Shown: piece after piece, positions 39,079-41,944 of the stretch
Layout of the letters: each line of letters opens with the position of its first letter
Numbering within the stretch: position 1 is the first letter of the stretch
Assembly (NCBI GenBank): GCA_029098225.1
Contig: JAQXNX010000014.1
Location: 124,001-188,000, forward strand
DNA: 64,000 nt
Source: Spirochaetales bacterium
Lineage (GTDB): Bacteria > Spirochaetota > Spirochaetia > Treponematales > Treponemataceae
Direction of reading: 5' to 3'
Program-made: the position numbers and the translations under genes
The notes under the pieces: generated by a model
Told to the model about the DNA's origin: nothing
The model's database searches: none
Seen by the model: only the letters and a program-made list of their open reading frames with translations

Positions 39079-39435
39079 TTATCTGTTCTTTCTTTCTTCC
39101 TGACTTGCGCAGGTAATGCACATTAAAGCATAAGGCAAAACTTTAAGTCTTTCCTGAGGAATCTCGTTTCCGCATTTTACGCATTTTCCATATTTTCCCT
39201 GACGGATTCTGTCTAATGCGTTATCTATCTGCTGCAATCTTTTTGAATCCTGAGTTCCAAGTGCAGTAAGCAAATTTCTGTCTATTACATCTGCAGCAAC
39301 ATCTGCTTCGTCTCCGGAATCAACGGTTTTAATTAAACCCTTCATATCTTCACTCTGGCTTGCAAGCGATTCAAGAATTGTGTTTCTCTGCTCCATGAGT
39401 GTTTTTTTCATTTCATCTAAGAAAGACTGTTCCAT
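39079..39435 (-). CDS. DksA/TraR-type zinc-finger protein
   Basis: IRQGKYGKCVKCGNEIPQERLKVLPYALMCITC. Confidence 0.9.
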   Translation of the reverse strand: MEQSFLDEMKKTLMEQRNTILESLASQSEDMKGLIKTVDSGDEADVAADVIDRNLLTALGTQDSKRLQQIDNALDRIRQGKYGKCVKCGNEIPQERLKVLPYALMCITCASQEERKNR

Positions 39436-39597: not shown

Positions 39598-39816
39598 ATG
39601 GCAAAAGAAGAAGCTATTGAAGTACAGGGCATAGTAAAAGAAGCCCTCCCGAACACAACCTTCCGCGTAGAACTCGAAGGCGGACACGTTATTCTCGCTC
39701 ATCTTTCTGGAAAAATGAGAAAGCATTACATCAGAATCGTTCCTGGTGACAGTGTAAAAGTTGAACTTTCACCATATGATTTGAACAAGGGCCGCATCGT
39801 ATTCCGCGAACGCTAA
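39598..39816 (+). CDS. infA: Translation initiation factor IF-1
   Basis: [47 protein letters not shown]. Confidence 0.97.
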
Positions 39817-39839
39817 TTTTTTTTAGGAAGAAAATAATT

Positions 39840-39941
39840 ATGAAACACACAGTCCGTTGGGCACAGAAAATCAATTCCTCTACGTTGGCTTACCTTTATT
39901 ATAGCTTAGATTCTCTCTGTCCTTACGGAAAACGCAAGTAG
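39840..39941 (+). CDS. Putative Tyr-rich leader peptide for tyrS attenuation (33 aa)
   Basis: MKHTVRWAQKINSSTLAYLYYSLDSLCPYGKRK with SD AGGAAG; four Tyr codons within 12; followed by terminator and tyrS. Confidence 0.7.
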   Translation: MKHTVRWAQKINSSTLAYLYYSLDSLCPYGKRK

Positions 39942-39970
39942 TTTGCGCTGTGTTACTAAATGGTAATTAC

Positions 39971-40003
39971 AAGGCTTTCCGTAAAAGGAAAGCCTTTTTT
40001 TAT
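39971..40003 (+). terminator. Intrinsic terminator/attenuator before tyrS
   Basis: AAGGCTTTCC-gtaaaa-GGAAAGCCTT TTTTTATT. Confidence 0.9.
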
Positions 40004-40046
40004 TGCAGGTTGAAAATATAAAATTGATATATAGGAGAAAAACAAC

Positions 40047-41279
40047 ATGACACTCTTTGAAGACTTAAAATGGCGCGGGCTTATTAAAGACGTTGCCGGC
40101 GAAGAAGCTGACTTACAGAAAGTACTGGACGGAGCTCCATTCGCCTTTTACTGGGGAACAGATCCTACAGCAGATTCTCTTCATCTTGGCCACTACTCTT
40201 CTTTGTGTATGGCAAAACGTCTTGCTAATGCAGGACATCATCCTGTTCTTTTGTGTGGTGGTGCAACAGGCCGTATTGGAGATCCTCGCCCAACAGCAGA
40301 GCGTGAAATTATTTCAGAAGAAGCTGTAAATGCAAATATTGGTGGAATCCGTGAGCAGATTAAACGCCTTGTTCCAAGTGCAGAACTCGTAGATAACTAC
40401 GACTGGTGGAAAGACCGCTCATTCCTCGACACACTCCGCGACATTGGTAAATATATCAGCTTGAACTACATGCTGGACAAGGATATTATCCGCCGTCGTC
40501 TTGAAACAGGTATTACTTTTGCAGAATTCTCTTACATGCTTCTCCAGGGCTTTGACTTTGTTCACCTCTTCCAGGACAAAAAGTGTATCATGCAGGTAGC
40601 AGGTTCAGACCAGTGGGGAAATATCACAACTGGTGTAGACCTTATCCGCAAAATGCTCGACGGACAGGCATATGCATTCACAATGCCTTTGATTCTCGAT
40701 GCAACAGGAAAGAAGTTCGGTAAATCAGAAGGTAACGCTCTCTGGCTGGAAAAATCAAAAACTTCTCCATACGCAATCTACCAGTACCTCATCAATGCAG
40801 ATGATAACCTGGTTCTTGACTACCTCAAGGTATTCACCTTCCTTACAAAAGAGCAGATTGAAGATGTTTACGCTCAGCAGCAGGCCGCTCCGGAAACACG
40901 TATTGCACAGAAAACTCTTGCATGGGAAGTTGTTAAAGACCTCCACGGAAAAGAAGAAGCAGACAATGCCGTTATGGTTTCTGAAAAACTCTTTAAGGGA
41001 GACTTCAAAGGCCTTTCTGTAAATGACATTATGATGGGCTTAAAGGGTGTTCCAAATTTTGATTTTAAGGAAGAGCTTCCTTTGGTTGATGTGCTTGTAA
41101 ACAATGGCATGGCTAGTTCAAAACGAGAGGCCCGCGAGTTCATTAAGAATAATGCAATTTCGATTAACGGCGAAACTGTAAATGATGAAACAAAAGTTAT
41201 TACAAAAGATATGGCTCTTGAAGGAAAAATCCTGATTTTCCGTCGTGGAAAAAAGAAGTATTTTATTGGAAACATTTAA
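40047..41279 (+). CDS. tyrS: Tyrosyl-tRNA synthetase
   Basis: FYWGTDPTADSLHLGHYSSL; KFGKSEGNALWL; C-terminal S4 domain. Confidence 0.98.
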   Translation: MTLFEDLKWRGLIKDVAGEEADLQKVLDGAPFAFYWGTDPTADSLHLGHYSSLCMAKRLANAGHHPVLLCGGATGRIGDPRPTAEREIISEEAVNANIGGIREQIKRLVPSAELVDNYDWWKDRSFLDTLRDIGKYISLNYMLDKDIIRRRLETGITFAEFSYMLLQGFDFVHLFQDKKCIMQVAGSDQWGNITTGVDLIRKMLDGQAYAFTMPLILDATGKKFGKSEGNALWLEKSKTSPYAIYQYLINADDNLVLDYLKVFTFLTKEQIEDVYAQQQAAPETRIAQKTLAWEVVKDLHGKEEADNAVMVSEKLFKGDFKGLSVNDIMMGLKGVPNFDFKEELPLVDVLVNNGMASSKREAREFIKNNAISINGETVNDETKVITKDMALEGKILIFRRGKKKYFIGNI

Positions 41280-41300
41280 TTCAATTTTTTAAATAAAAAG

Positions 41301-41342
41301 AAAGCCCGCGATTTTGATGAAAATTCTTTCGCGGGCTTTTTT
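41301..41342 (+). terminator. Terminator after tyrS
   Basis: AAAGCCCGCGA...TCGCGGGCTTTTTT. Confidence 0.85.
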
Positions 41343-41368: not shown

Positions 41369-41944
41369 TCAGCTTTCTTTGGATTTTTGGCTTCTGAATA
41401 ATCCTTTAATTGACTGAACAACGCCTGTAATTCCGTTCACAAATAAAGCTATACATATAATCGGTCCAAATGGAAAAAACATCCACGAATATCTGAAGAA
41501 TACAAAGCTTATAAATGCCTGCAATCCTTTTAATATAAACATTGAAAAATAATTACGGTTTGTTCGTTTTGGCTGATTATCTTTATTGTAGTAATAATAG
41601 CTTCTTCTTGAGTTAGACTGTTTTTCATCAAACCAGTCCCAGAAATTATCATCACCAAAAGGATTTCTGTAAGTATATTGATACTGACTTTGCTGATATT
41701 GCTGATACTGGCTTGAATTACTGTATGCGTTTTCTGAATATCCGCTTAAATCGTAATTTTTTCGCTTAGATTCGTCTCCAAGTACATCGTATGCGGCAGT
41801 TATCTGTTTAAATTTTTCTTCTGCAGCGGCATTTCCAGGATTTCTGTCCGGATGATATTTAAAGGCAAGAGTTCTGTAGGCCTTTTTAATTTCATCTGCA
41901 GTTGCTGTTTTTGATACGCCAAGTATCTCGTAGTAGTTACTCAT
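41369..41944 (-). CDS. J-domain protein
   Basis: [36 protein letters not shown]. Confidence 0.9.

Follow-up and report, generated by a model that had tools for sequence, protein, structure and literature searches.

The window, the whole 64-kb stretch of DNA that was analyzed, carries on its forward strand infA (translation initiation factor IF-1; 39598-39816; NCBIfam TIGR00008, above the cut-off) and, downstream of it, tyrS, encoding tyrosine--tRNA ligase (40047-41279; NCBIfam TIGR00234, 359 bits versus a cut-off of 113.8). A preliminary description of this DNA had claimed a 33-codon ORF between the two genes. Every coordinate given in it is correct; the ORF is present at 39840-39941 on the forward strand and is conserved across species; its ATG lies 23 nt after the infA stop codon, and its translation is MKHTVRWAQKINSSTLAYLYYSLDSLCPYGKRK. 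The Shine-Dalgarno (SD) sequence that was said to precede it is a possible one, AGGAA at 39825-39829 (forward strand). infA and the leader are probably co-transcribed in the window genome. On the reverse strand, an ORF resembling a DksA/TraR-type zinc-finger protein (39079-39435) is transcribed away from infA, and a J-domain (DnaJ-like) ORF (41369-41944) is convergent with tyrS. An inverted repeat with a T-run lies between tyrS and the J-domain ORF, near 41300-41341.

The remaining elements are all on the forward strand. Codons 18-21 of the ORF (TAC CTT TAT TAT, or Tyr18-Leu-Tyr20-Tyr21; 39891-39902) are the putative control codons, and in the predicted fold an apical stem places them in the loop of a hairpin in which codons 5-12 pair with codons 24-31. 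The 5' side of this hairpin is strand 1, TCCGTTGGGCACAGAAAATC (39853-39872; codons 5-11), a candidate anti-antiterminator whose partner includes ACGGA. Strand 2, TTACGGAAA (39923-39931), overlaps the last leader codons and would be the 5' strand of the antiterminator. It is followed by a small predicted hairpin at the leader stop codon (CGCAA/TTGCG; 39933-39947) and by CTGTGT (39948-39953), the 3' strand of an outer stem with ACACAG at 39847-39852. The intrinsic terminator, noted in the preliminary description, occupies 39971-39996 and consists of strands 3 and 4, with a 10-bp stem and a T-run to 40001. The complementarity reported earlier between strand 2 and strand 3, TTTCCGTAA (39976-39984), amounts to 9 bp, and the helix beats dinucleotide shuffles (p = 0.01). 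Absent from that description were the anti-antiterminator hairpin within the ORF, the sister attenuators upstream of DAHP synthase and the promoter predicted to make the leader mRNAs of most relatives leaderless, all of which are presented below.

The 33-residue peptide, and then a profile of its relatives, were searched over 276 genomes of the family. Leaders were found in about 70 of the 276, in 2 of 21 genera, and about three quarters of these genomes had no match to the profile. A degenerate DNA pattern applied to 85,488 species matched 44 stretches, all titled Treponema or a higher spirochaete taxon; these were mostly genome bins, many of them rumen-labelled, together with Treponema bryantii isolates. 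Every true match with a known next gene was followed by tyrS of the window type (tyrS-A), a second type of tyrS (tyrS-B, also TIGR00234) or DAHP synthase (TIGR01361). A terminator-like stem-loop with a T-run was located by automatic search after 64 of these 66 leaders, and none was found by that search for the other 2. Two of the weakest profile matches (L098 and L099) lie elsewhere and were treated as chance. Among genomes lacking a clear match to the profile, the DNA upstream of tyrS in 16 contained no such leader, and neither did the region upstream of the window genome's own DAHP synthase (L164). In two relatives (L148 and L149), infA adjoins tyrS with no leader; together with the three quarters of family genomes without a match, this indicates that the device is dispensable. 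A looser DNA pattern for other control codons recovered only known leaders, with no pheA, trpE or pheS members, and one false match inside a gene (L165). Five genomes (G012, G066, G037, G107 and G132) have two copies of the device each, one at tyrS and one at DAHP synthase. A REP/MITE-like inverted repeat of the type GTCAAGGCTTTAAGCGAAGCGTGCCTTGAC recurs upstream of tyrS in relatives, between the attenuator (or infA) and tyrS (L005, L007, L022, L024, L148 and L121), and is not at this place in the window.

Four Tyr codons in 33 are only weakly unusual by themselves (a probability of approximately 4% if Tyr is taken to make up 4% of codons); the case for a leader rests on conservation. The conservation of the ORF and its Tyr codons had been set beforehand as a check and was borne out, with Tyr18 in 29/30, Tyr20 in 30/30 and Tyr21 in 22/30 tyrS-A leaders. 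The Tyr codons named in the preliminary description are upheld for codons 18-21. The later TAC that it also listed (codon 29; 39924-39926) falls within the antiterminator strand, and just 7 of 30 relatives have Tyr there, so it is not a control codon. Leaders upstream of DAHP synthase have Tyr18 and Tyr20 in 28/28 and add Phe23 (25/28), Tyr24 (24/28), Trp25 (16/28) and Phe26 (25/28), so that the peptide reads AYFYFSFYWFS. Trp after codon 17 occurs in 18/28 of these leaders versus 2/30 tyrS-A leaders (Fisher p = 4e-6), and Phe averages 3.7 versus 1.2 per leader. DAHP synthase catalyzes the first step shared by Tyr, Phe and Trp synthesis; codons for all three upstream of this gene are therefore the pattern expected of codon-based sensing. 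The control codons match the amino acid of the downstream gene in both cases, as they would in an attenuator (Tyr for tyrS; Tyr, Phe and Trp for DAHP synthase).

An attenuator would also have a conserved short ORF with a start and stop, an intrinsic terminator between that ORF and the gene, and a mutually exclusive antiterminator conserved across species, and these were found. The strongest helix that the ORF end of a leader can form with the 5' arm or loop of its own terminator was determined leader by leader and compared with dinucleotide shuffles. The strand 2:3 helix beat the shuffles (p <= 0.05) in 43 of 64 leaders and was weak in several tyrS-B leaders. Pairing with a leader's own terminator was better than with the terminators of other genomes (Wilcoxon p = 1.7e-5, uncorrected for relatedness). 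Strand 2 carries the motif GCGGAAG or ACGGAAA near the leader stop codon, and its reading frame varies (GCG GAA, tGC GGA, CGG AAG). The motif lies at the stop codon and beyond in L026, and in L083 strand 2 is UUCGGGAAG with CUUCCCGAA as its partner. The varying frames, the position in L026 and the version in L083 indicate that the motif is conserved at the RNA level and not for the peptide it encodes. Strand 2 lies at least 25 nt past the Tyr20 codon in all leaders and is inside the footprint of a ribosome at the stop codon in 87.5% of them. The conserved, locus-specific pairing and the fitting geometry support the earlier proposal that a ribosome stalled at the Tyr codons would free this strand, while one at the stop codon would cover it.

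The leader is very probably a transcription attenuator of the ribosome-mediated kind, responding to charged tRNA-Tyr and controlling tyrS. RNA polymerase would copy the leader ORF with a ribosome behind it. With ample Tyr-tRNA, the ribosome would reach the stop codon and cover strand 2 (ACGGAAA), the terminator would form from strands 3 and 4, and tyrS would be off. With scarce Tyr-tRNA, a stall at codons 18-21 would open the strand 1:2 hairpin of the ORF; the freed strand 2 could then pair with strand 3, no terminator would form, and tyrS would be transcribed. If the ORF were not translated, strands 1 and 2 would pair, giving default termination in the tyrS class. The analysis itself gives the anatomy, the conservation, the match between codons and gene, the locus-specific pairing and the predicted folds; the stalling, the termination, the response to Tyr and the transcription start sites are inferred. 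In the window genome, transcription of the leader probably begins at the infA promoter, so infA would be constant and tyrS gated.

This switch was modeled with a footprint mask, before synthesis of strand 4 and with no base pairs permitted across the ribosome. For the window, a ribosome at Tyr18, 20 or 21 gave the 2:3 helix a probability of 0.88; the value was 0.005 when no ribosome was present and 0 when one occupied the stop codon. Medians for tyrS-A leaders were about 0.85 (stalled), 0.04 (no ribosome) and 0.00 (stop), the stop value being nearly built in because the footprint covers strand 2. When pairing across the masked ribosome was allowed, the overall difference between the stalled and no-ribosome states vanished. 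With strand 2 shuffled, the mean probability across all leaders was 0.40 instead of 0.79 (p = 3e-10). DAHP-synthase leaders had a median of 0.85 without a ribosome, that is, no protection in that state.

The apparent peptide conservation of the ORF is largely RNA constraint, seen in conserved wobble bases and in the hairpin whose loop contains the Tyr codons. Wobble entropy over codons 3-17 of tyrS-A leaders was 0.45 compared to 0.98 in tyrS itself, the leader being more conserved, whereas second-position entropy was 0.21 compared to 0.06, the leader being less conserved. Besides the ORF hairpin, the predicted fold gives the small stop-codon hairpin and the outer stem (AAACAC/GUGUUU type), and the mean z of the ORF fold in the three leader classes was -1.78, -0.88 and -1.26. 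The stop-codon hairpin is greatly extended in L020 and L024 (z -6.2 in L020). RNAalifold on a structure-blind MAFFT alignment of tyrS-A leaders showed no covariation and recovered almost no structure; on the DAHP-synthase MAFFT alignment it gave both the outer and the apical stem but put the terminator in the wrong place. Folding of single sequences with pair counts was used instead. Stem registers lie 2-4 nt apart between classes, which stood in the way of a covariance model. In the DAHP-synthase alignment, 84.8% of cells pair compared to 35-47% with the partners slid, and 13 cells show two-sided changes, with 1 shuffle in 500 giving as many; the effect versus shuffles is modest, and the structure was derived from the same sequences.

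These data bear on three other explanations. Positions 6-20, including Trp7, are unusually conserved for an attenuator leader, as would be expected if the nascent peptide itself arrested the ribosome in the manner of TnaC, on free tyrosine or another aromatic compound rather than on uncharged tRNA. We consider this very unlikely: much of the conservation is at the RNA level and accounted for by base pairing, Phe and Trp codons appear precisely in the leaders whose gene serves Tyr, Phe and Trp alike, and a stall at high Tyr would increase tyrS expression just when there is least need for it. Less likely still is a conserved small protein, with the terminator merely ending the infA unit and tyrS read from an unseen promoter of its own. 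The N-terminus (RWAQKIN..LAY) is strongly conserved, and a terminator after infA is plausible; however, the ORF and terminator also occur as a pair upstream of DAHP synthase, away from infA, and codon content follows whichever gene lies downstream. GCGGAAG is retained even though the C-terminal half changes in sequence, frame and length. Codons 5, 13 and 15 conserve the third base and vary in the first two, opposite to protein constraint, and residues were not more conserved than nucleotides at degenerate sites. Least probable is a leader RNA that binds tRNA or a ligand, as a T-box or riboswitch does, and whose translation is incidental. This would suit the elaborate conserved fold of outer stem, ORF hairpin and stop hairpin, yet the ORF keeps its start, stop, frame and control codons, the control codons differ between tyrS and DAHP-synthase versions, no Rfam family matched at the gathering threshold at nine loci, and no T-box was found in the window even at a relaxed threshold.

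Attenuation by codon-dependent stalling is the reading we retain, and the leaders of relatives suggest how the device may be transcribed. In 41 of 56 non-redundant leaders (23/24 for DAHP synthase, 7/7 for tyrS-B and 11/25 for tyrS-A), a TTGACA-like box is followed after 17-18 nt by a TAnnnT element that ends 6-10 nt before the leader ATG, compared to 0.6% of shuffled upstream sequences. TGn often precedes TAnnnT. Loci bearing this promoter include L025, L064-L079 and other DAHP-synthase loci, L028, L082-L093, and L007-L012. Sigma-70 transcription starts 6-9 nt downstream of the -10 box; we infer from this spacing that transcripts would start between 0 and about 3 nt before the AUG, so that most leader mRNAs of relatives are probably leaderless or nearly so. 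The absence of an SD from most promoter-bearing leaders agrees with such a start, although several tyrS-A leaders have an AAGG that could act as an SD. No TTGACA/TAnnnT promoter was found at the leader in the subgroup to which the window belongs. Leaders without this promoter, including that of the window, are mostly 11-45 nt behind infA and, given this position, are probably read from the infA promoter. We give roughly even chances to a Treponema cassette (promoter, leaderless ORF in a conserved folded RNA, and terminator) having moved among two tyrS lineages and DAHP synthase and been retuned through its loop codons (Tyr only, or Tyr, Phe and Trp), with its own promoter lost and the device wired behind infA in some species, including that of the window. 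If so, tyrS would be tied to a constitutive translation-factor transcript where the cassette lies behind infA.

The proposed mechanism would be classical attenuation as in trp, pheA and pheST (PMC11802643). The E. coli pheST attenuator, in which a leader peptide controls phenylalanyl-tRNA synthetase (PMC11802643), resembles the tyrS leader in its aminoacyl-tRNA synthetase gene, its leader peptide rich in cognate codons and its terminator with antiterminator, but has Phe codons and belongs to Proteobacteria; Rfam Phe_leader (RF01859) scored 22.2 bits in the window versus a gathering score of 55. The uORFC-8-2 motif, predicted upstream of cysS in Rhodobacterales (PMC8632094), likewise has a synthetase gene, cognate codons in a conserved RNA stem, a terminator and a lineage-specific distribution; it differs in its Cys codons, its phylum and its single gene type. 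Aromatic-codon attenuators before DAHP synthase, as in Treponema, are the AroR leader before aroF in C. glutamicum (PMC11802643) and uORFC-13-1 before aroF in Acholeplasma (PMC8632094), but these are from other phyla, and sharing with tyrS is not reported for them. Leaderless attenuator peptides are reported in Streptomyces (LeuL before leuS, TrpL and ThrL; PMC8079986), and classical leader attenuators have been predicted for trpS and leuS (PMC1262725). As predicted for most of the Treponema leaders, these have an mRNA starting at the leader start codon and lie before synthetase genes; the Streptomyces system is actinobacterial, and the leaderless start in Treponema is a prediction made from promoter spacing that does not extend to the subgroup of the window. 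The literature searched, with most subscription papers outside reach, contained no leader-peptide control of tyrS and no attenuation in Treponema.

The unusual features are the retuning of a single conserved scaffold to two types of gene and the predicted leaderless start. Leader-peptide attenuation of a tRNA synthetase would thereby be extended to tyrosine and to Treponema. Because a single RNA scaffold serves genes with different amino acid needs, these leaders are a natural experiment on the rewriting of specificity by codon change. Leaderless translation is also predicted in Treponema, and Treponema bryantii isolates carry the device. It was seen in rumen and gut Treponema bacteria.
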